From a bacterium (GTDB lineage Bacteria; UBP6; UBA1177; JAKLFG01), in assembly GCA_022709425.1 (NCBI GenBank), contig JAKLIW010000004.1, positions 191,630-255,629 of the forward strand: DNA of 64,000 bases, read 5' to 3'. Of the stretch, positions 38,827 through 49,392 are shown one piece after another. The position numbers and the translations under genes are program-made. Below the pieces are notes generated by a model that worked only from the letters and a program-made list of their open reading frames with translations, was not told the origin of the DNA and searched no databases. Within the stretch, counting starts at the first letter, position 1. Every line of letters starts with the position of its first letter.

Positions 38827-40794
38827 ATGATCGACCTCGAACGCCGCCATATCATCCGCCAGCAATGGGACCGTTTCTGGAACGGCGAAGCGGTCGATAC
38901 CACGGTCGTCCACCCGTATCTGATCGCCTCGTGGGAGCGGAGCCGCGCGTTCGGCGTCCCGCGCCGCATCGAAAAACTGCCGACCGCCTCATCGGGCGAA
39001 CTCATCAACCGCATCCACGAAAGCCGCCGGATGCTCGGCGTCGCGGTGCCGTACATGAAGAAGATCATCTCCTTCATGAACGATCCCGAGAGCATCATCA
39101 TGATCACCAACGGACAGGGGATCGTGCTGGAACTGTTCGGTTCCCCCGAGATGCTGGCGCTCGACACGGCGCCGAAACTGGGGAGTCGCCTGCGCGAAGA
39201 GGATATCGGGACCAACGGGGTCGGCACGGCGCTTATCGAGGATCGGACGCTCGACATCTGGGCGGGAGAACACTACCTCGAGGCGCTCCATTACTGGTAC
39301 GCGAGCGGCGACACCATCCACGACAAGGAGGGGAAGATACTCGGCTGTCTGTGCCTTTTGTGCCGCTGGGATCTGGTCAACGCCCATTCGCTGGGGCTGG
39401 TCGGAGCGGTCGCCGGCGCGATAGAACGGCAACTCCACATCGAGGATGCGCTCGCCGAAAAGACGGTGGCGATGCAGAAACAGCAGGCGATCGTCGGGTC
39501 GATAACCGAAGGGATCGTCGTCATCGACGGCGACGAGAAGATACGGGAGATCAATCCGTCGGCGCGGCGAATGCTCGGGCTCGGGCCGGAGGATCATGTC
39601 GGCCGCTCGGTCTACACCGTCATCCCCGACGGCATCAACTTCTTCAAGATCATGGCCGACGGCGCGAACATCCACGACCGCGAGGCGGTCCTCTCCCTGC
39701 GCGACCGGAAGCTCCACTGTTCGGTCTCGGCCGCGCTGATAGAGAGCGAAGGGGCGGTCGGCGGCATGGTGGTCACCCTCAAGGAGGCAAAATCGCTCCA
39801 CCAGTTGGCGGGCAAGATCGCCGGTTCGCGCGCCTACCTGAGTTTTTCCGACATCATCGGCGCCTCGCAGTCGTTGCAGGAGGCGGTGAAATTGGCCCGG
39901 ACGGCGGCCAAAAGCCGGTCGAATGTGCTCCTGCTGGGCGAAAGCGGCACCGGCAAGGAACTCTTCGCCCAGTCGATACACAATTTCAGCGACCGGGCAC
40001 AGCATTCGTTCGTCGCGGTCAACTGCGGCGCACTGCCGCGCGATCTGGTCGAGAGTGAACTGTTCGGCTACGAAGGGGGCGCCTTCACCGGCTCGAAGAA
40101 AGAGGGGCGGCCGGGGAAGTTCGAACTGGCCGACGAGGGGACCATCTTCCTCGACGAGATCGGCGACATGCCGCTCGAAGCGCAGGTGAACCTCCTGCGG
40201 GTCCTCCAGAGTTCCGAGGTGGTCCGCGTGGGCGGCACCTATCCGAAGAAGATCGATGTCCGCGTCATCGCCGCCACCAACCACGACCTGAAAAAAGCGG
40301 TCGAACAGAAGGCGTTCCGCGACGATCTCTACTACCGGCTCAATGTCCTCGCCATCACCATCCCGCCGCTGCGCGAACGGGTGGAGGATATCGAGGCGCT
40401 CGCGCTCCATTTCGCCAAACGGTCGGCCAACGCCATGAATAAGCCCGCCCCCGTCATAACTCCCGAGGCGATGCGCCTCCTCAAGTCCTATCCGTGGCCC
40501 GGCAACATCCGCGAACTGGAAAATGTGCTGGAACGGGCGGTCAACATCATGGAACGACCCGAGATAACGCCCGCCGAACTGCCCGACCACCTGCGGGGCG
40601 CGAGCGGCGGGGAGCCGCTTCCCGAAGGACCGTCCCTCAAAGCGCGCGAGTACGAGACGATACTGCGGATGCTCGAAGAGACCGGAGGCAATCTGCGGGC
40701 CGCCGCCGGGCGGTTGGGCGTCGCGCGCGGCACCCTTTATAATAAGGTAGTGAAGTACCGGATCGACCTCGAAAAGTTCCGCCGCAACGGCTGA
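38827..40794 (+). CDS. Sigma-54-dependent transcription activator (GAF-PAS-AAA-Fis)
   Basis: The 655-residue protein has an N-terminal GAF-like region (about 70-205, FMNDPESIIMITN, EEDIGTNGVGTALIEDRTL) and a PAS domain (about 218-320). The AAA+ domain (about 343-575) has Walker A GESGTGKE (371-378), the sigma-54 loop as GAFTGS (418-423) and Walker B GTIFLDEIGD. A Fis-type helix-turn-helix (NLRAAAGRLGVARGTLYNKV) ends the protein. It has no receiver domain, so it probably responds to a small molecule or redox signal. The domain order resembles AcoR-type activators. Palindromic sites and a sigma-54 promoter lie immediately downstream, before the hydrogenase operon, its likely target. Confidence 0.93.
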   Translation: MIDLERRHIIRQQWDRFWNGEAVDTTVVHPYLIASWERSRAFGVPRRIEKLPTASSGELINRIHESRRMLGVAVPYMKKIISFMNDPESIIMITNGQGIVLELFGSPEMLALDTAPKLGSRLREEDIGTNGVGTALIEDRTLDIWAGEHYLEALHYWYASGDTIHDKEGKILGCLCLLCRWDLVNAHSLGLVGAVAGAIERQLHIEDALAEKTVAMQKQQAIVGSITEGIVVIDGDEKIREINPSARRMLGLGPEDHVGRSVYTVIPDGINFFKIMADGANIHDREAVLSLRDRKLHCSVSAALIESEGAVGGMVVTLKEAKSLHQLAGKIAGSRAYLSFSDIIGASQSLQEAVKLARTAAKSRSNVLLLGESGTGKELFAQSIHNFSDRAQHSFVAVNCGALPRDLVESELFGYEGGAFTGSKKEGRPGKFELADEGTIFLDEIGDMPLEAQVNLLRVLQSSEVVRVGGTYPKKIDVRVIAATNHDLKKAVEQKAFRDDLYYRLNVLAITIPPLRERVEDIEALALHFAKRSANAMNKPAPVITPEAMRLLKSYPWPGNIRELENVLERAVNIMERPEITPAELPDHLRGASGGEPLPEGPSLKAREYETILRMLEETGGNLRAAAGRLGVARGTLYNKVVKYRIDLEKFRRNG

Positions 40795-40949: not shown

Positions 40950-40966
40950 TGGCACGGGTTTTGTGC
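40950..40966 (+). promoter_or_regulatory. Sigma-54 (RpoN) promoter of the hydrogenase operon
   Basis: TGGCAC at 40950-40955, five bases, then TTGTGC at 40961-40966, against the consensus TGGCAC-N5-TTGCA. The -24 GG is perfect; the -12 element reads GT where GC is expected. It is 32 bases before the ATG of the first gene. The AT-rich stretch 40889-40927 between it and the half-sites could help DNA bending. Confidence 0.7.
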
Positions 40967-40997: not shown

Positions 40998-42905
40998 ATG
41001 CGGCTCCTGACCAAGTTCGTCCTGACGACGGTAGCGATCTTCCTGATGCTCGCCGTCGTACTCTCCACGGTCAGTACCCTCTGGATAAATCAGAATACGA
41101 TACGCGACGCCCAGCACCGCGTCGAGGTGGCGATCCGCTGGGCGCGCGAGGCGTTCAACCAGAAGAACCGCGACGCTCATCAGGTGCTCGCGGTGGTGGC
41201 GCAGAACGAACTGCTCCGCGATTTTCTCGATAACCCCCGTGACCCGAAACTGACCGCTGCGGTGCAGGAGAAATTCAACAACTTCCGTCTCCAGCACCAC
41301 ATGGACCTGCTCAACATCATATCGGCCGACGGCACGGTGCTCCTGCGGACGCGGCCGCCGTTCAACCGCGGCGACGACATGTCGGACAACCCCTTCATCC
41401 GCCACGCGCTCCTCACCGGGAAGAGCATCGAGGGGACGATCGTGATCGGGCGGTCGGCGCTGGTGCGCGAAGGGGAGAGCCTGCTGGAACGGGCGGTCGA
41501 CGCCACCGGCGAACCCAACGGGATGTTCACCGGCACGGCGGTCCCGGTGATGCGGGGCGGGAAACTCATCGGGATCATCTCGTCGGGGATACTGATCAAC
41601 GGCAATAACGATTTCATCGACACGGTCCGCGACGCGGTCTCCTACGGCGACTACTACAAGGGTCGTTCGGTCGGCACCGCGACCATCTTCATGGGCGACA
41701 AACGGATCGCCACCAATGTGGTGGGGAATAAGGCGGGGCGGGCGACCGGCACCGCGGCGGCGACCGATGTGGCCGATATGGTGCTCCTGCGGGGCGAAGC
41801 GTGGTCGGGACGGGCCTGGGTGGTCGACGCGTGGTACCTTTCCTACTACGAACCGATCCGCGATCCCGACAACAACATCATCGGCATGCTCTATGTCGGC
41901 GAACTGGAACAGAAGTACCGCGATATCCGCTTCAAGGCGGTGGCGAGCGTGGTGTCGGTCATCTTCGTCGCGATGCTCTTCAGTATCGCCATGTTCATCC
42001 TGATCGCGCACTCCATCCTTGAGCCGGTCCGGAAGCTGCGCGACGCCACGGCCCGCCTGATAAAAGGGGAGCGGTCGGCGCGGGTGACCGAGCAGTTCGG
42101 CGGCGAAATGGGCGACCTGACCCGGTCGTTCAACAACATGGCCGACGATATCGAGAAGCATACCGCCGAGATCGAACGGAAACAGCGCGAACTGGGCGCG
42201 CTCAACAACGAACTCGAGATGACCAACCGGAACTACATCGACATGCTCGGGTTCATCAGCCACGAACTCAAGAACCCGCTCGCCAGCGCGGTCCTGAGCC
42301 TTCATACGGTCAAGGACGGGTATCTGGGCGAACTCAACGACAAGCAGAAGCGGGGGCTGGAATCGGTGGCCGAGAGTCTCGACTACTTCAAGGAACTGAT
42401 CCGCAGTTACCTCGACCTGTCGAAACTCGAAAAGGGCGACTATGTCATCAACCGTCGCAACACCGCGCTCAAACGCGAGGTGATAGACCCGGCGATACAG
42501 GGACTGACCGAAGAGATCCGCCGGCAGCACATGACGCTCGATATCGGCGTCCACGATGAAACGATGGTCGACGCCGACCCCGATCTGCTCCGCATCGTCT
42601 ACGACAACCTGATCGGCAACGCGGTCAAATATGGCCGCGAGGGCGGGGCGATCCGTCTGCGCGAGAAGGTGCGCGACGGCCGGCGGGTGTTCACCGTCTA
42701 CAACGAAGGGGCCGGGATACCGCGCGAGAAGATGGATATGCTCTTCAAGAAATTCTCGCGCATCTATTCGCAGGATACCGCCGGGAAACGCGGTTCGGGA
42801 CTCGGGCTGTACGCCTGCCGCGAGATCGTCCGCAAGCACGGCGGCGAGGTGTGGGCCGAATCGGAGCCCGGCAAGTGGGTCGAATTCAGTTTCGAGATAG
42901 GATAA
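40998..42905 (+). CDS. Membrane histidine kinase with Cache-type sensor
   Basis: The 635-residue protein has membrane helix 1 (about 8-28), a large extracytoplasmic Cache-like sensor (about 30-310, with DLLNIISADGTVLLRTRPPF and DPDNNIIGMLYVGE), helix 2 (about 315-338) and HAMP (340-392). The HisKA H-box is FISHELKNPLAS with His422, followed by an HATPase domain (DNLIGNAVKYG, GSGLGLYACREIV). In the G1 box the usual D-x-G-x-G reads N-E-G-A-G at residue 569. It opens the hydrogenase operon and probably feeds the receiver proteins encoded with it. Confidence 0.92.
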   Translation: MRLLTKFVLTTVAIFLMLAVVLSTVSTLWINQNTIRDAQHRVEVAIRWAREAFNQKNRDAHQVLAVVAQNELLRDFLDNPRDPKLTAAVQEKFNNFRLQHHMDLLNIISADGTVLLRTRPPFNRGDDMSDNPFIRHALLTGKSIEGTIVIGRSALVREGESLLERAVDATGEPNGMFTGTAVPVMRGGKLIGIISSGILINGNNDFIDTVRDAVSYGDYYKGRSVGTATIFMGDKRIATNVVGNKAGRATGTAAATDVADMVLLRGEAWSGRAWVVDAWYLSYYEPIRDPDNNIIGMLYVGELEQKYRDIRFKAVASVVSVIFVAMLFSIAMFILIAHSILEPVRKLRDATARLIKGERSARVTEQFGGEMGDLTRSFNNMADDIEKHTAEIERKQRELGALNNELEMTNRNYIDMLGFISHELKNPLASAVLSLHTVKDGYLGELNDKQKRGLESVAESLDYFKELIRSYLDLSKLEKGDYVINRRNTALKREVIDPAIQGLTEEIRRQHMTLDIGVHDETMVDADPDLLRIVYDNLIGNAVKYGREGGAIRLREKVRDGRRVFTVYNEGAGIPREKMDMLFKKFSRIYSQDTAGKRGSGLGLYACREIVRKHGGEVWAESEPGKWVEFSFEIG

Positions 42906-42915
42906 GGAGAACGAT

Positions 42916-43320
42916 ATGCCCAGAAAGATCCTCATCGCCGACGACGATGTCCAGATGGTGAATGCCCTGCGCACCCTGCTGGAGAATGTCGGGTTCGTTG
43001 TGACGGTGACGCACCATTCCAAAGAGGTGGTGGAACTGACCCGGCGCGAGCGGCCCGACCTGATACTGCTGGATGTCCTTTTCGCCGGGATGCCGGGGCC
43101 GGACGGGTTCGAGATATCACGGAAGATCGCCAAGGACGCCGAACTGCGGACCACCCCGGTCATCATCTTGAGCGGCGTGAAACGGGTCATCGCGAGCGAT
43201 TTCGCGGTGGAGCCCGACCCGGAGTGGCTGCCGGTCGCCGCGTTCCTCGACAAGCCGGTCCGCCCCGACCAACTGCTCAAAGAGATAGAACGGTTACTTT
43301 CCGATAGGAGTCACTCATGA
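42916..43320 (+). CDS. Receiver-only response regulator (first of three)
   Basis: The 134-residue protein is a single receiver domain: acidic pocket DDD near residue 10 (LIADDDVQMV), phospho-acceptor Asp in LILLDVLF, and the conserved Lys in FLDKPVRP. There is no output domain, so it acts by protein contact or as a relay. It follows the kinase by 10 bases and overlaps hydC by four bases (ATGA). Confidence 0.92.
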   Translation: MPRKILIADDDVQMVNALRTLLENVGFVVTVTHHSKEVVELTRRERPDLILLDVLFAGMPGPDGFEISRKIAKDAELRTTPVIILSGVKRVIASDFAVEPDPEWLPVAAFLDKPVRPDQLLKEIERLLSDRSHS

Positions 43321-43793
43321 ACACGATGACCGAACAGGTGCTGACGAGGTATCCGGGCGCGGGACGGGACAAACTCATCCCGATCCTGCAGGAGGTACAG
43401 GAGGCCGACGGCTACATCTCCAAGGAGGCGGTCGCGCTTATCGGCCGTCACCTCGGGGTGCCCGCCTCGAAGATTTACGGCGTGGCGACCTTCTACAACC
43501 AGTTCCGCTTCACGCCCAAGGGCAAGTACCACATCATGGTGTGCCGCGGCACCGCCTGCCATGTCAAAGGGTCGGCCGATATACTCGAACGGATCGAGCG
43601 GGCGCTCAAGATCACGGCGGGCGAAACGAGCCGCGACGGCCTGTTCTCGATAGAGGTGGTCGCCTGCATCGGCGCCTGCGGACTGGCACCGGTCATCTGC
43701 GTGAACGGCGAATACCACGGCAAACTGACCGGCGACGCGGCCGAAAAGATCGTGAAGAGTTACCAGCAACGGGAGGCGACACATGGCAACTGA
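43317..43793 (+). CDS. hydC: [FeFe]-hydrogenase subunit, NuoE-like [2Fe-2S] protein
   Basis: The 158-residue protein matches the NuoE/HndA/HydC family. A helical N-terminal part contains ISKEAVALIGRHLGVPASKI and GVATFYNQFRF. A thioredoxin-like domain follows, with [2Fe-2S] ligands in CRGTAC and VACIGACGLAP (C-x4-C and C-x3-C). In NAD-linked hydrogenases it transfers electrons next to the flavin subunit. It overlaps the following gene by 11 bases and is the first of the contiguous hydCBA set. Confidence 0.93.
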   Translation: MNTMTEQVLTRYPGAGRDKLIPILQEVQEADGYISKEAVALIGRHLGVPASKIYGVATFYNQFRFTPKGKYHIMVCRGTACHVKGSADILERIERALKITAGETSRDGLFSIEVVACIGACGLAPVICVNGEYHGKLTGDAAEKIVKSYQQREATHGN

Positions 43794-45675
43794 CACTCTC
43801 TTCACCCGCGGCGCCGAGGCGCTGAAGAAGATCCGCCGCGAAACGGTCGACCGGCCGGTCGTCTTCGTCGGCGCGGGGACCTGCGGACTGGGGGCGGGGG
43901 CGGCCCAGACGCTCGCCGCGGTCCGGGAATGGATCGCCGCGCACCATATCGACGCCGACATCGTCGAGACCGGCTGTATCGGGCTGTGCGCCGAAGAACC
44001 GCTCATGGATGTCCAGCTCCCCGGCCGGGCGCGGATCAGTTTCAAAAAGGTCACCGGCGAAAAGGCGTCGAAGATACTGGATTCGGTATTCAAGGGGGCG
44101 GTCGATACGAAGACGGCGCTGGTCCAGTTCGATGCGGGCGACAACAAAGGCTGGGACGGCGTCCCGACCTTCGCCGAACATCCCTTCTTCCGGCGGCAGA
44201 CCCGTTGGGTGTTGGGCAACTGCGGCGTGATAGATCCCGAAAGCATCGACGAATACTGCGCCCGCGGCGGCTATGAAGCGCTCCGCGACACCCTCTCGTG
44301 GCTGACCCCCGACGAAGCGGTCGAGACGGCGGTAAAAAGCGGCCTGCGCGGTCGCGGCGGCGGCGGGTTTCCGACCGGCAAGAAATGGCGGTTCGCCCGC
44401 GCCGAGAAGGGCGAGCTCAAATATCTCGTCTGCAACGCCGACGAGGGCGATCCGGGGGCGTTCATGGACCGCGCCGTCATCGAGGGCGATCCCTACCGGC
44501 TCCTTGAAGGGATGACCATCGCCGCCTACGCCATCGGGGCGCGCGAAGCCTACATCTACATCCGGGCCGAATATCCGCTGGCGATCAAACGGCTCGAACG
44601 GGCCATCGCGGTGGCCGAACGGGAGAATCTGCTGGGCGATAAGATACTGGGAAGCGAGCTGTCGCTTCACATGCACATAAAAATGGGGGCCGGCGCATTC
44701 GTCTGCGGCGAAGAAACGGCGCTCATCCACAGCATCGAAGGAAAACGCGGGATGCCGCGTCCTCGCCCGCCGTTCCCGGCGGTGAAGGGGCTCTTCGGCA
44801 AGCCGACCGTCATCAACAATGTCGAGACCTTCGCCAATGTCCCGGAGATATTCCGCCACGGCGCGGAACGCTTTGCGGCGGTCGGGACCGGGACGAGCAC
44901 CGGGACCAAGGTATTCGCCCTGTCGGGGAAGGTGGTCAACACCGGGCTGGTCGAGGTGGCGATGGGGACCTCCATCCGCGAGATCGTTTTCGACATCGGC
45001 GGCGGCATCGAACATGGCGCGGCCTTCAAGGCGGTGCAGATCGGCGGCCCGAGCGGCGGTTGTATCCCCGACGCGAATCTCGACACCAAGATCGATTACG
45101 AGGAACTCAAGAAGGTCGGCGCGATGATGGGGAGCGGCGGACTGGTGGTGATGGATGAACACACCTGCATGGTCGATGTCGCCAAATTCTTCATGGACTT
45201 CATCCAGCGCGAATCGTGCGGGAAATGCATTCCGTGCCGCGAAGGGACGCGCCGGATGCTCGAGATACTGCAGTCGATCACCCGGTCGCGCCGCAACGAA
45301 ACGGGCGAACAGGCGCTCCAGCGCTTTCAGGGGATCATGCAGCTGACCGAACTGGCCGAGGTGATCCGCTCGACGAGTCTGTGCGGGCTGGGCCAGACGG
45401 CGCCCAATCCGGTCCTCTCGACCCTCAAGTGGTTCCGTCACGAATACGACGCCCATGTCTACGACCGGAAATGTCCGGCCGGCGCCTGCAAGGACCTGAT
45501 CACCTACCGGATCGTCGAGGAGCAGTGCAAGGGATGCACCCTCTGCGCGAAAAAATGTCCGGTCGGCGCGATCAAGGGGGCGCCCAAGTCGCCGCACTAC
45601 ATCATCGACGAAAAATGCATCCGGTGCGGCGCGTGTATCGTCGCCTGCCCCTTCAAAGCGATAGAAACGGAATAG
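43783..45675 (+). CDS. hydB: [FeFe]-hydrogenase NADH/FMN subunit, NuoF-like
   Basis: The 630-residue protein carries an N-terminal thioredoxin-like [2Fe-2S] region (GTCGLGAGA, ETGCIGLCAEEP) and the NuoF core. The core includes the FMN/NADH motif GLRGRGGGGFPTGKKW, NADEGDPGAFMDR and GAGAFVCGEETALIHSIEG. The [4Fe-4S] motif SCGKCIPCREGTRRM comes next, and two C-terminal [4Fe-4S] clusters end the protein (CKGCTLCAKKCP, CIRCGACIVACP). This domain set is that of HydB/HndC of trimeric, electron-bifurcating or NAD-reducing hydrogenases. It should exchange electrons with NAD(H) and possibly ferredoxin. A GGGAGG site precedes the start. Confidence 0.94.
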   Translation: MATDTLFTRGAEALKKIRRETVDRPVVFVGAGTCGLGAGAAQTLAAVREWIAAHHIDADIVETGCIGLCAEEPLMDVQLPGRARISFKKVTGEKASKILDSVFKGAVDTKTALVQFDAGDNKGWDGVPTFAEHPFFRRQTRWVLGNCGVIDPESIDEYCARGGYEALRDTLSWLTPDEAVETAVKSGLRGRGGGGFPTGKKWRFARAEKGELKYLVCNADEGDPGAFMDRAVIEGDPYRLLEGMTIAAYAIGAREAYIYIRAEYPLAIKRLERAIAVAERENLLGDKILGSELSLHMHIKMGAGAFVCGEETALIHSIEGKRGMPRPRPPFPAVKGLFGKPTVINNVETFANVPEIFRHGAERFAAVGTGTSTGTKVFALSGKVVNTGLVEVAMGTSIREIVFDIGGGIEHGAAFKAVQIGGPSGGCIPDANLDTKIDYEELKKVGAMMGSGGLVVMDEHTCMVDVAKFFMDFIQRESCGKCIPCREGTRRMLEILQSITRSRRNETGEQALQRFQGIMQLTELAEVIRSTSLCGLGQTAPNPVLSTLKWFRHEYDAHVYDRKCPAGACKDLITYRIVEEQCKGCTLCAKKCPVGAIKGAPKSPHYIIDEKCIRCGACIVACPFKAIETE

Positions 45676-45685
45676 GGGATATGTC

Positions 45686-47407
45686 ATGGAACAGATGATC
45701 GCAAATGGGAATATGATCCCGTTCGAGAAGGGGGAAACGGTGCTGACGGCTCTCAAACGGGCCGGCATCCGGGTGCCGACCCTCTGCCACATCGACTGTC
45801 TGCCGCCGGTCGGCGCCTGCCGCATTTGCGTGGTGGAGGATACGGCGACCGGGCAACTGATCCCGTCGTGCAGTTTCCCCGCGGCGCCGGGGCTGTCGGT
45901 GGCGACCCACAGCGTAAAGGCGCTTAAAGCGCGCAAGACCATCGTCGAACTCCTGCTGGCCAACCATCCCGACGACTGCCTCTACTGCGACCGCAATCTT
46001 AACTGCGACCTGCAGAAACTGGCCGAAGAACTCGGCGTGCGTCAGCGCCGCATCAGCGGGGAACGGATCGCGCAGTTCGTCGACAACTCCAGCCCCGCCA
46101 TCATGCGCGACCCGGAGAAATGCATCCTCTGCGGCAAATGCGTCCGCACCTGCGAAGAGATACAGGGGGTGTCGGCGCTCGATTTCAGCGGCCGCGGCTC
46201 GAAATGCAAGATATCGACCGCCTTCGACCAGAGCCTCAACCTCTCGACCTGCGTATCGTGCGGCCAGTGCGTCATGGCCTGCCCGACCGGCGCGCTGACC
46301 GAACGCTCCAGCCTCCGCGAGGTGATGAACGCCCTGCAGGACCCGAAGAAAACGGTCGTTATCCAGCACGCCCCGGCCATCAGCGTGTCGCTTGCCGAGG
46401 AATTCGGTCTCCCCGCCGGGAGCGACATCATGGGGCTCATGACCGCGGCGCTGAAGAAAATAGGCTTCAAGGCGGTCTTCGACACCTCCTTCTCGGCCGA
46501 TCTGACCATTATGGAGGAGGCGACCGAACTGGTGGAGCGGGTGACCAAGAAAGGAGTGCTCCCGATGATCACCTCGTGCAGTCCGGCGTGGATAAAATTC
46601 GCCGAGACCTTCTACCCGACGGTACTGCCGCACCTTTCGACCTGCAAGAGCCCCCAGCAGATGCTCGGCGCGGTCATCCGCCACTACTGGGCCGGCACGC
46701 AGGGGATCGATAAAAAGGCGGTCTATTCGGTCAGCGCCATGCCCTGCACCGCCAAGAAATTCGAGGCGGAGCGCGAAGAGATGCTGGTCAAGGGGGCGCC
46801 CGACATCGACGCGGTCCTCACGACCCGCGAACTGGCCAAACTCATCCGGATGTATTCGATAGAGCTCGACAAACTCGAACCGGCCGCCTGCGACCTGCCC
46901 TTCGGCGAGAGGTCGAGCGCCGGGAAACTCTTCGGCGCGAGCGGCGGGGTGATGGAGGCGGCGATCCGGACGGCCCACTACCTCATCACCGGCCGCGAAC
47001 TGGGGAACCTCGTCGTCGCGGCGGTGCGCAGCGGCGTCGGTCTGCGTGAAACGGCCCTCACGCTCAACGGGCTGACGCTCAAAGCGGCGGTCGTGAGCGG
47101 CCTCGGGAACGCGCGGAAGGTGCTCGACGAGGTGGCGGCCGGGACGAGTCCCTACCACTTCATCGAGATCATGTCCTGCCCCGGCGGCTGTATCAACGGC
47201 GGCGGACAGCCGCGCGGCATCGACCGGGAGAATGTCAAGCGGCGGCTGGCGGCGCTCTACGCGATAGACGCGGCGGCGACCCTGCGGGTGAGCCATAAGA
47301 ACCGCGCGGTGGCCGAACTCTACGAGAAGTTCCTCGGCAAACCGGGCGGCCATACGAGCCACGAACTGCTCCATACGACCTATCAGGCGCGGACCGATCT
47401 GTTATAA
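45686..47407 (+). CDS. hydA: [FeFe]-hydrogenase catalytic subunit
   Basis: Catalyses reversible H2 formation at the H-cluster. The 573-residue protein has an N-terminal [2Fe-2S] site (Cys34, 45, 48, 62), a His-ligated [4Fe-4S] site (His94, Cys98, 101, 107) and two ferredoxin clusters (Cys146-156 and Cys189-199). The H-domain motifs are L1 TSCSPAW (296-302), L2 MPCTAKKFE (352-360) and L3 EIMSCPGGCINGGGQP (494-509). L1 reads Ser299 where the textbook motif TSCCPxW has a second Cys. Together with HydB and HydC it forms a trimeric NAD-linked enzyme. No HydEFG maturase genes are in the window. Confidence 0.95.
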   Translation: MEQMIANGNMIPFEKGETVLTALKRAGIRVPTLCHIDCLPPVGACRICVVEDTATGQLIPSCSFPAAPGLSVATHSVKALKARKTIVELLLANHPDDCLYCDRNLNCDLQKLAEELGVRQRRISGERIAQFVDNSSPAIMRDPEKCILCGKCVRTCEEIQGVSALDFSGRGSKCKISTAFDQSLNLSTCVSCGQCVMACPTGALTERSSLREVMNALQDPKKTVVIQHAPAISVSLAEEFGLPAGSDIMGLMTAALKKIGFKAVFDTSFSADLTIMEEATELVERVTKKGVLPMITSCSPAWIKFAETFYPTVLPHLSTCKSPQQMLGAVIRHYWAGTQGIDKKAVYSVSAMPCTAKKFEAEREEMLVKGAPDIDAVLTTRELAKLIRMYSIELDKLEPAACDLPFGERSSAGKLFGASGGVMEAAIRTAHYLITGRELGNLVVAAVRSGVGLRETALTLNGLTLKAAVVSGLGNARKVLDEVAAGTSPYHFIEIMSCPGGCINGGGQPRGIDRENVKRRLAALYAIDAAATLRVSHKNRAVAELYEKFLGKPGGHTSHELLHTTYQARTDLL

Positions 47408-47418
47408 AGGAGACGACG

Positions 47419-47814
47419 ATGAACGAAGAGAAACGGAACATACTGCTGGTCGACGACGACCCCGATTTCCTCGAACCGGTCAGAATGCTGCTGGACGCCC
47501 ACGGCTACAAGGTCGAGTCGGCCCATAGCGAAGAGGGGGCGCTCAAGTGTCTCGAGACCTTCAAGCCCGATCTGGCGATACTCGACCTGATGATGGACCA
47601 CTACGACAGCGGTTTCATCGTCGGCCACAAACTCAAAGGGCGCTACCCCGATGCCAAGGTCATCATCGCGACCGGCGTCACCGGCGAGACCGGCTACCGT
47701 TTCGCGGCCGATTCGGAATACGGCGCCAACTGGACCGGCGCCGATCTGATCATGGACAAGGGAATACGGCCCGACCAGATACTCAGAGAGATCAAGAGAC
47801 TGTTGGGAGAATGA
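47419..47814 (+). CDS. Receiver-only response regulator (second of three)
   Basis: A 131-residue single receiver domain with LLVDDDPDF, phospho-acceptor Asp in LAILDLMMDH, and IIATGVTGE. The conserved Lys is in IMDKGIRPDQ, where Gly replaces the usual Pro after Lys. It has no output domain. It starts 11 bases after hydA with an AAAGGAG site. Confidence 0.9.
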   Translation: MNEEKRNILLVDDDPDFLEPVRMLLDAHGYKVESAHSEEGALKCLETFKPDLAILDLMMDHYDSGFIVGHKLKGRYPDAKVIIATGVTGETGYRFAADSEYGANWTGADLIMDKGIRPDQILREIKRLLGE

Positions 47815-47816
47815 CC

Positions 47817-48941
47817 ATGAACGCCCTGAGACTCCTCATCGTCGACGACGACCCGCGGATGCGCGAAAGCTGTTCACTGGTGCTCGACGGCCTGCGGATA
47901 CAGATGCCGTGGCTTCCCGACGAGTACGCGCTGAAGGTCCTCTTCGCGGGGAGCGCCGAGGAGGCGAAGGGTATCATCGAGACGGGGTCGGTCGATCTGC
48001 TCCTGCTCGACCAGCGTCTGCCCGGCATGCAGGGGACCGACCTGCTCGCCTACATCGTCGAGAAGGAGCTCGACCTGCAGACGGTCATGATCACCGGCAA
48101 TGCCTCGCTCGACACCGCCGTGAACGCTACCCGCAACGGCGCGAGCGAGATACTCGCCAAGCCCTTCACCCCCGAAGAGCTGCGCCTGAGCGTCACCAAG
48201 GCGGCGCGGTTCCTGATACTCCAGCGGATCGCGGCGAAACTCGACGAAGAGCGCAAAAAGACGCGGTTCGAGTTCATCAGCGTCCTTTCGCACGAACTCA
48301 AAAGCCCGCTCGCGGCGGTGACCGGCTATCTCGACATGCTCCGCAACCGGACGCTCGGCGACGATATGGCGGCCTACGACGCCTGCGTCGAGAGGTCGCT
48401 CCTGCGGCTGGAAGGTATGCGGCGGCTCATCATCGACATGCTCGACCTCACCCGCATCGAATCAGGGGTGAAGGTGCGCGCCATCGCCGAACATACCCTC
48501 GCCGATATCGCCGCCGACATGATCGACGGGGTCCGGGCGCAGGCGGCCAAACGGGGCATCACCCTGACGCAGGACCTGCCCGATGTCGCCGTGAAGGTCG
48601 ACCGGATGGAACTGGAGATAGTGCTCAATAACCTGCTCACCAACGCGATAAAATACAATAAGGAGGGCGGAACGGTCGCCCTCACCGGACAGCGGATCGG
48701 ACACGCGCTCAAACTGCAGTGCCGCGACACCGGCATCGGCATGACCCCCGAGGAGACCGAGAAGCTGTTCAAGGAATTCACCCGCATCCGCAACGAGAAC
48801 ACGAAGAACATTCTGGGCAACGGTCTGGGTCTGTCGATAGTCAAGAAGATCGTCGCCCTGTACGATGGAGAGGTATCCGTGGAGTCACGGTACGGGGAAG
48901 GTTCGGTCTTTACCGTCATCCTTCCCGGCATAGTAACTTAA
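47817..48941 (+). CDS. Receiver-histidine kinase hybrid, cytoplasmic
   Basis: The 374-residue protein has an N-terminal receiver (LLIVDDDPRM, Asp in LLLLDQRLPGM, Lys in ILAKPFTPEEL), a HisKA domain (FISVLSHELKSPLAAV) and an HATPase domain (LNNLLTNAIKYNKEG, CRDTGIGMTPEE, GNGLGLSIVKKIV). It has no membrane segment. A receiver placed before the kinase implies that phosphorylation of the receiver controls its own kinase. The ATG at 47817 is spaced properly from GGGAGA; the ATG at 47811 overlaps the previous stop and is the alternative. Confidence 0.92.
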   Translation: MNALRLLIVDDDPRMRESCSLVLDGLRIQMPWLPDEYALKVLFAGSAEEAKGIIETGSVDLLLLDQRLPGMQGTDLLAYIVEKELDLQTVMITGNASLDTAVNATRNGASEILAKPFTPEELRLSVTKAARFLILQRIAAKLDEERKKTRFEFISVLSHELKSPLAAVTGYLDMLRNRTLGDDMAAYDACVERSLLRLEGMRRLIIDMLDLTRIESGVKVRAIAEHTLADIAADMIDGVRAQAAKRGITLTQDLPDVAVKVDRMELEIVLNNLLTNAIKYNKEGGTVALTGQRIGHALKLQCRDTGIGMTPEETEKLFKEFTRIRNENTKNILGNGLGLSIVKKIVALYDGEVSVESRYGEGSVFTVILPGIVT

Positions 48942-48956
48942 CAGAGGGAGTGTGTC

Positions 48957-49340
48957 ATGACGAAAAAGGTTTTCCTTGTAGACGATGATCAGGACATCAT
49001 CGTGCAGAACAAACTGGCCCTTACGGCCAAGGGTTTCACCGTGGAGGACGCGGGGAGCGCCAAAGAGGCGACCGAGAAGATCAACAAATTCCATCCCGAT
49101 GTCATCGTCCTCGATGTCATGATGGAAAATCCGCGGGCGGGTCTGGAATTCGCGGGCAAGATGGCGACCGATCCGGCCATGCCTAAGATCCCGATCATCC
49201 TGCTGACCAGCGACGGCCAGAACCCCGGCTGGCTCGCCGAAGGGGCCTTCACGTGGGCCCGCGTCGCCAAGATCCTCGACAAGCCGGTCACCCCGGAGAA
49301 ACTGGTCGACACCGTCAAGTCGGTGCTCGGCAAGAAGTAA
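48957..49340 (+). CDS. Receiver-only response regulator (third of three)
   Basis: A 127-residue single receiver with FLVDDDQDI, phospho-acceptor Asp in VIVLDVMMEN and Lys in ILDKPVTPEK. It is 15 bases after the hybrid kinase and the last gene of the hydrogenase operon. It keeps all expected catalytic residues and no output domain. Confidence 0.92.
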   Translation: MTKKVFLVDDDQDIIVQNKLALTAKGFTVEDAGSAKEATEKINKFHPDVIVLDVMMENPRAGLEFAGKMATDPAMPKIPIILLTSDGQNPGWLAEGAFTWARVAKILDKPVTPEKLVDTVKSVLGKK

Positions 49341-49356: not shown

Positions 49357-49392
49357 CCGTCCCTCCCCCGATTTCGGCCGGGGGAGGGACGG
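49357..49392. terminator. Strong hairpin between the convergent hydrogenase operon and the gene at 49398
   Basis: A perfect 13-bp stem, CCGTCCCTCCCCC (49357-49369) with GGGGGAGGGACGG (49380-49392), and a 10-base loop. It begins 16 bases after the last receiver stop. No clear T-run follows on either strand, so if it ends transcription it does so by its stem strength, possibly for both strands. Confidence 0.55.

Follow-up and report, generated by a model that had tools for sequence, protein, structure and literature searches.

The window analysed here is a 64,000-nucleotide stretch of a 3.0 Mb draft genome (contig JAKLIW010000004.1) from a bacterium of the group for which we use the name Sumerlaeota. 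It carries an operon in which a HydABC-type [FeFe]-hydrogenase is encoded amid two histidine kinases and three single-domain receivers, one of which, R2, is the main subject of this report. Eight genes, identified by their Pfam domains, lie on the forward strand: K1, a membrane histidine kinase with sCache_3, HAMP, HisKA and HATPase domains (40998..42905); the receiver R1 (42916..43320), which overlaps hydC by four bases; hydC, for the thioredoxin-like [2Fe-2S] subunit (43317..43793); hydB, for the FMN/NADH subunit with Complex1_51K, NADH_4Fe-4S and a C-terminal Fer4 domain with a pair of [4Fe-4S] motifs (43783..45675); hydA, for the [FeFe] catalytic subunit with Fe_hyd_lg_C and Fe_hyd_SSU domains (45686..47407); the receiver R2 (47419..47814), with an unusual alpha4-region loop recognised by alignment and a fold model; HK2, a Response_reg-HisKA-HATPase kinase (47811..48941) whose start lies inside the end of the R2 gene in a four-base overlap; and the receiver R3 (48957..49340), found at the same place in the near relatives L034-L037. 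The intergenic gaps from K1 to R3 are, in order, 10, -4, -11, 10, 11, -4 and 15 bases, and a GC-rich inverted repeat read by eye 3′ of R3 (49357..49392, forward strand) forms a terminator-like end of the operon. These coordinates, gaps and domains confirm the eight genes, their order and their common strand as reported in the initial annotation of this DNA, and also its statement that the single receivers carry no output domain, since R1, R2 and R3 each match Response_reg only.

Inspection by eye and motif positions show that all four receiver domains retain the acidic residues, the phospho-acceptor Asp, the Ser/Thr and the Lys, and that K1 and HK2 retain the H, N and G boxes. A Pfam scan of the operon found no Hpt domain, and HK2 could supply the phosphotransfer step through its own HisKA domain. 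Purifying selection acts on all eight genes (dN/dS 0.05-0.16 in 22 orthologue comparisons with L034, L035 and L036), a result from which K1 and R1 versus L036 were left out because paralogous domains had been matched, as were eight rows versus L037 because dS was saturated. The window genome holds 39 receiver matches above the Pfam cut-off, and a receiver tree gave no resolved origin for either R1 or R3. Scans of the window yielded neither a tRNA nor an Rfam family above threshold.

HydA scores 781.7 bits with NF040763, the NCBIfam model for group A6, above the cut-off of 765, and carries the H-cluster motifs ITSCSPAW, MPCTAKKFE and EIMSCPGGCINGGGQP, the TSCSP of the first being identical to that of the solved chain 7q4v, which together with 8a6t is among its closest solved relatives. 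With HydA, HydB and HydC all encoded together, the subunit set of a group A3/A6 HydABC enzyme is complete, and the window genome also has the maturation gene HydF (494.2 bits, above cut-off). Such enzymes stand at a branch point of anaerobic metabolism, where they exchange electrons between H2, NADH and ferredoxin. In the window's phylum, 22 of the 28 genomes searched have HydA at E<=1e-140, and seven have the window's type (G000, G001, G002, G004, G015, G018 and G022). A second HydA type in this phylum (43-48% identity) has the R2-HK2 pair in none of the copies whose surroundings were read. At L203 (G002), a second-type hydB-hydA pair lies directly 5′ of the sigma-54 activator, K1 and R1, such that two hydrogenase loci may stand in tandem there, and the contig ends within R1; at L206 (G025), from a distant Sumerlaeota relative, a second-type hydA is followed by a MASE6-kinase-receiver hybrid.

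Related loci were collected from one genome scan (the best 80 of 481 places), from a search of 393 Bacteroidales genomes drawn evenly from a larger group, 120 of which have HydA at E<=1e-175, and from further HydA searches of two phyla, that of the HGW-Deltaproteobacteria-22 record (matches in 12 of 188 genomes) and that of L041 (1 of 10). The surroundings were read for 100 regions, including 60 from as many of the 120 Bacteroidales genomes. One operon order recurs across phyla, namely HydC, HydB, HydA, HydS-HK, R2 and HK2, where HydS-HK is a protein with ferredoxin, [FeFe] hydrogenase and FeS domains joined to a histidine kinase (as seen in five proteins). The window operon is a variant of this cross-phylum arrangement. 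Restriction of the pairing to a single genome, which the initial annotation had named as the outcome that would undo its proposal, is excluded by this neighbourhood analysis, which finds R2-HK2 conserved together with one HydABC clade in several phyla.

The clade was defined on a HydA tree of 173 rows (a single tree, with FastTree supports) as the smallest one with the receiver-linked rows, which has 84 rows and a support of 99; L070, with a distant kinase and a 530-residue receiver protein, was left out of the definition. The six-row HydA group of the window (support 99) lies within a 68-row set (97), which lies within this clade. In 62 of the clade's rows receivers accompany HydS-HK, in 5 they accompany a Cache kinase, in 11 they occur with neither, and 6 rows have none of these. 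A receiver matching the R2 profile lies within 4 kb 3′ of hydA in 75 of the 84 rows, while 7 end too near, and R2 is followed by HK2 in 69; L177 and L192 (2/84) have no R2 despite having room for it. Outside the clade, 64 rows with room have no R2 and 25 are too short, a difference owed in part to the way the clade was drawn. For the same reason a Fisher test comparing R2 within and beyond the clade was circular, the clade being the smallest to hold the labelled rows, and it was not used. Orthology is well supported for both proteins: 74 of 76 R2 rows fall in one set (support 95), and the HK2 receiver domains of all 69 rows fall on one side of a branch with a support of 99. The contigs of L039 and L040 (Acidobacteriota) end after hydA.

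A receiver directly 5′ of HydC, in the position of R1, is present in 34 of the 84 clade rows. Other HydABC-type loci likewise have a single-domain receiver directly 5′ of hydC (L262, L264, L265, L268, L271, L275 and L277), most of these stretches showing no kinase beside it.

Two further searches started from an R2 profile and not from HydA. Among the same 393 Bacteroidales genomes 135 were matched, 108 of which have both HydA and R2 matches and 27 an R2 match only at the threshold used; in 21 of these 27 a HydA, often divergent, adjoins R2, in five (L225, L234, L237, L243 and L245) HydS-HK alone lies beside it, and one (L223) has neither. Across the domain, 44 of 386 genomes were matched at 66 places, and strong matches (at least 146 bits) occur in 16 of the 386, eight of them Sumerlaeota kin and eight from other families. 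Seven of the eight strong places outside the window's phylum stand directly after HydA and HydS-HK, and the eighth (L288), at a contig start, adjoins HydS-HK; L281 is apparently the same record as L041. Of 50 weaker R2-like places 24 were read, of which 10 lie near HydA and 2 near HydS-HK only, whereas 12 lie near neither, 9 of them with a kinase. The profile searches therefore identify the R2 subfamily as a partner of HydABC, and the wider receiver family also occurs away from these enzymes. Two further places were observed with HydS-HK, an R2-type receiver and a receiver-kinase: L291, a short stretch with no adjoining hydA, and L256, whose contig carries hydA at a distance of about 14 kb.

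The input side of the system is variable. Pfam found no HydS-HK in the window operon, and the HydA query gave no second full-length match in the genome, in which no genome-wide search for HydS was made. The sensor of K1 is a Cache domain and not one of hydrogenase type (Pfam), and the Cache region lies between transmembrane segments predicted at residues 7-25 and 318-336. For HK2, Pfam and transmembrane prediction found neither a sensor domain nor a transmembrane segment. The kinase core of K1 is distant from the cores of both HydS-HK and HK2, and the Sumerlaeota rows are nested within the clade of HydS-HK bearers in the HydA tree. It appears that K1 stands in for the missing HydS-HK, and because it has a Cache domain, a ligand outside the cytoplasm is its probable input. 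A further exchange is evident at L161 (Bacteroidales), where a Cache_3-Cache_2 sensor replaces the hydrogenase domain on a core of HydS-HK type (63% identity to the L184 core), apparently a swap separate from that in Sumerlaeota. Five clade loci (L145, L163, L166, L180 and L182) have R2 and HK2 after HydA and no HydS-HK, and in the Sumerlaeota relative L038 R1 directly follows the activator with no K1 between them. From the K1 core, L161, the five HydS-HK-less loci and L038 it follows that inputs change while HydABC, R2 and HK2 stay.

In the relatives, the hydrogenase-motif cysteines are the majority residues over 63 HydS-HK proteins, 45 of which match a strict pattern for all three motifs, and because these cysteines are kept, many HydS-HK proteins are predicted to bind an H-cluster and to sense H2. 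The proposal in the initial annotation that the hydrogenase serves as a redox sensor thus has a counterpart in the relatives, although in another form, namely a separate sensory hydrogenase domain fused to the kinase. Most of L168-L190 (Bacteroidales) encode, on the opposite strand 5′ of hydC and facing away from it, a second protein resembling HydS, about 620-660 residues long and with no kinase domain, and these resemble two bfuT genes in the available text of PMC11406978. In one Fibrobacterota locus, a Cache kinase and a run of receivers lie about 4 kb after a HydA outside the clade (L060:6019-9809).

We scored the phosphorylation pocket (D12, D13, D56, T85 and K114 of R2) in receivers after HydA. 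Where HK2 adjoins R2, the pocket is intact in 90 of 90 rows. Where HK2 is absent despite room to see it, the pocket is damaged in 4 of 15 rows, or 4 of 13 once the HydS-HK rows L230 and L242 are dropped; 4/13 versus 0/90 gives a Fisher value of 1.6e-4, computed over rows that are not independent. Five R3 rows, all intact, were set apart, as were seven contig-edge rows, two of which were scored as damaged (L247, where Tyr replaces D13 and no kinase is visible, and L115, which is simply truncated). The four damaged receivers carry D13T, D56E and K114R (L122, of the same phylum as the HGW-Deltaproteobacteria record), D12G and D13S (L179, Bacteroidales) and D13Y (both L231 and L255). A phmmer scan, which distant kinases may escape, found no kinase in the examined stretches of these four loci, yet G65, F66, F95, W105, A108 and D109 are kept in all four receivers. 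HydA has standard motifs in L122 and L179 and altered ones in L231 and L255. This pattern, although the cases are few, is what would be expected if R2 also binds something other than a kinase, with the hydrogenase as the obvious candidate; damaged-pocket receivers beside hydA with a preserved surface favour binding to the enzyme.

The same loci bear on two other explanations. R2 might feed back on the kinases in the manner of FixT, tuning K1/HydS-HK or HK2, and travel with hydCBA by co-transcription only. FixT, a lone receiver, acts as an inhibitor of its kinase FixL (according to the accessible part of PMC7078487), and R2 lies directly 5′ of HK2 with a four-base overlap, but R2 persists where the locus shows no kinase, and with one cysteine in R2 and none in R1 or R3 the iron-sulphur version of FixT is not applicable. 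We regard such feedback as unlikely. Alternatively, the receivers might hitchhike with a mobile hydrogenase cluster and have no function tied to it, as transfer of HydABC (Bfu) clusters between phyla has been reported (PMC11406978, as far as its text was available). Purifying selection on all eight genes and the repeated retention of R2 after the loss or exchange of other parts led us to reject this explanation, which we consider very improbable.

The sequence and predicted structure of R2 are compatible with a docking role. Its orthologues have about 131 residues, and among 53 aligned sequences the invariant positions include D12-D14, D51, D56, G65, F66, K73, F95, W105, A108, D109, K114 and R117. 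The model (pLDDT 85) has a receiver fold in which the alpha4 region is mostly a low-confidence loop at about residues 92-109. In other receivers the alpha4 face is the partner-binding face, and for that reason the conserved loop of R2 is a plausible docking surface. Foldseek with the R2 model returned generic receivers, including RR468 and Spo0F, and because these matches are generic they suggest no partner.

We propose that R2 makes direct contact with HydABC and, once phosphorylated, would shift the activity of the enzyme, a reading to which we give close to an even chance. K1 would sense a ligand outside the cytoplasm, where in most relatives HydS-HK would sense H2 instead, and the kinases would set the phosphorylation of R2, with the sensor-less HK2 made switchable by its own receiver domain. 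R2 would then dock on HydABC via the F95/W105/D109 loop and, once docked, change the exchange of electrons between H2, NADH and ferredoxin. R1, whose translation overlaps that of hydC, and R3 would be side branches of the same circuit. What we observe is the gene order, the orthology of R2 and HK2 and their linkage to a single HydABC clade, together with sensor exchange and kinase-less R2 beside hydA; from these we infer kinase activity, phosphotransfer routes, docking and an effect on the enzyme. In a broader formulation, which we offer tentatively and hold to be possible, R2 is a fourth, regulatory subunit of this HydABC clade, a receiver seated on the hydrogenase that switches the enzyme by phosphorylation beneath interchangeable sensors and has become a fixed, phosphorylation-blind subunit in some lineages.

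Several results weigh against direct action on the enzyme. No hydrogenase-fused R2-like receiver was found among 363 candidate longer proteins, whose three matches are all PAS plus kinase proteins. Twelve of the 120 Bacteroidales genomes with a HydA match have no R2 match, and at L223 neither HydA nor HydS occurs in the 9 kb upstream of R2 and HK2, to which the 12 weaker R2-like places near neither protein can be added. Damage to the pocket mostly affects one acidic residue, with the phospho-acceptor Asp lost only in L122, and the pocket is whole in 9 of the 13 kinase-less rows, namely the R2-like receivers of L232 (where hydA is fragmented) and L289 together with seven that score lower and lie mostly at other HydABC types; L278 has a Cache kinase further upstream. 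Because L231 and L255 are alike and have altered HydA motifs, these two loci may be decaying as a whole.

Altered motifs are also observed more widely. In L172, L182, L188, L190 and some of L227-L241 (Bacteroidales), the HydA of this operon lacks the usual H-cluster motifs and has, for example, SGDCPAW, SSDCPAF or STLCPSW instead of TSC[SC]P[AG]W, nearing the motif of sensory HydS. Such HydABC enzymes may be slow, sensory or inactive.

The region upstream of K1 provides evidence for a different output. A sigma-54-dependent activator with PAS, AAA+ and Fis-type HTH domains (38827..40794, forward strand; Pfam, with the start codon inferred) ends 203 bases 5′ of K1 on the same strand. The initial annotation had noted the absence of a DNA-binding protein from the operon, which is correct between K1 and R3 and overlooks this neighbour. 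A predicted near-consensus sigma-54 -24/-12 site, TGGCACGGGTTTTGT (40950..40964, forward strand), lies 48 bases 5′ of the K1 start and has one mismatch in the GC element relative to the sigma-54 consensus. Aligned upstream regions show an exact match, TGGCACGCACTTTGCT, 5′ of K1 in L037. The activator also lies 5′ of K1 in L034, L035 and L203 and 5′ of R1 in L038.

These features raise the possibility of an ordinary transcriptional two-component network, in which R1-R3 and HK2 are phosphate shuttles or sinks and a DNA-binding protein sets hyd expression. The sigma-54 activator and a receiver-LuxR protein of some Bacteroidales could each carry the output, as could a protein encoded elsewhere. 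In favour of such a network are the activator and site directly upstream, the retention of the activator in relatives, and the H2-sensing, histidine-kinase-linked group 2b hydrogenases that control hydrogenase expression as classified in HydDB (PMC5037454, in the text available). A receiver-LuxR gene lies upstream in 11 of the 84 clade loci, all Bacteroidales, and because of it transcription may be the output, which again counts against direct action. The activator, however, has no receiver domain detectable by Pfam, the receiver-LuxR gene is confined to those 11 loci, some of them short, and a damaged-pocket R2 is kept without a kinase in L122, L179, L231 and L255, a retention that a phosphate shuttle would not call for. 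We consider a transcriptional network possible though somewhat doubtful. Direct action of R2 on the enzyme seems somewhat likelier because R2 stays with hydA where activator or receiver-LuxR genes and a kinase were not found. The suggestion of the initial annotation that the relay gates the enzyme itself has therefore gained some evidence, from kinase-less R2 beside hydA, the damaged pocket and the kept surface, while a transcriptional output is still a live competitor.

If a receiver does switch HydABC, cells could quickly redirect electrons in answer to H2 or an outside signal, and the switch would be common to many Bacteroidales and candidate-phylum bacteria. The sensor swaps suggest a modular control unit that would help in engineering hydrogenases responsive to H2 or to a ligand, and the kinase-less loci with a damaged receiver offer a direct test of docking without phosphorylation. 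The system is wider and better conserved than is visible from the sequence of the window alone.

Part of this system is already in print. The initial annotation regarded it as undescribed, which does not hold for HydABC with a sensory hydrogenase-kinase, reported in 2024 as BfuABC with BfuT (PMC11406978, available in part), and does hold for the receivers to the extent that no mention of them was found. The words ‘response regulator’ and ‘receiver’ are absent from the main text of that paper, figures not covered, and R2, HK2, R1 and R3 are not named there. In the literature searched, to which subscription journals mostly do not belong and which includes the accessible portions of PMC8163306, PMC4374699 and PMC9304861, we found no description of receivers beside HydABC, nor of the receiver-only partner, the sensor-less receiver-kinase or the sensor swap.

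Among known systems, FixT resembles R2 as an output-less receiver that acts by protein contact, but it acts on a kinase, and Caulobacter FixT binds Fe-S by four cysteines where R2 has one (PMC7078487, accessible part). H2-sensing kinase systems (group 2b [NiFe] and putative group C1 [FeFe]; PMC5037454, available text) likewise have a dedicated two-component sensor, and an [FeFe] sensor domain on a kinase is shared by the window's relatives, whereas the window's receivers lack output domains and its sensor is Cache, not hydrogenase. In a Cloacimonadota metagenome-assembled genome, a histidine kinase and subunits of bifurcation type are encoded next to a group C1 gene, with no single-domain receiver mentioned in the portion of PMC8542988 available. 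The solved group A3/A6 HydABC enzymes (8a6t and 7q4v) share the subunit set, domains and catalytic motifs of the window enzyme, and their structure entries name no receivers or kinases. The closest likeness is to the sub-type V arrangement of the 2024 report (PMC11406978, from the text available), in which BfuABC, a group A3 [FeFe] hydrogenase, is linked to BfuT, a sensory hydrogenase of group C3 that bears a histidine kinase domain, in Hydrogenedentota, Calditrichota and three Bacteroidota. The gene order of the window's relatives resembles that of sub-type V BfuTABC, and the genus Tenuifilum is common to the paper and to our R2 matches, a comparison drawn by gene order and genus and not by sequence. 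The window differs in having no HydS-HK and a Cache kinase at its 5′ end, while its HydA belongs to the same clade as the HydA of HydS-HK bearers.

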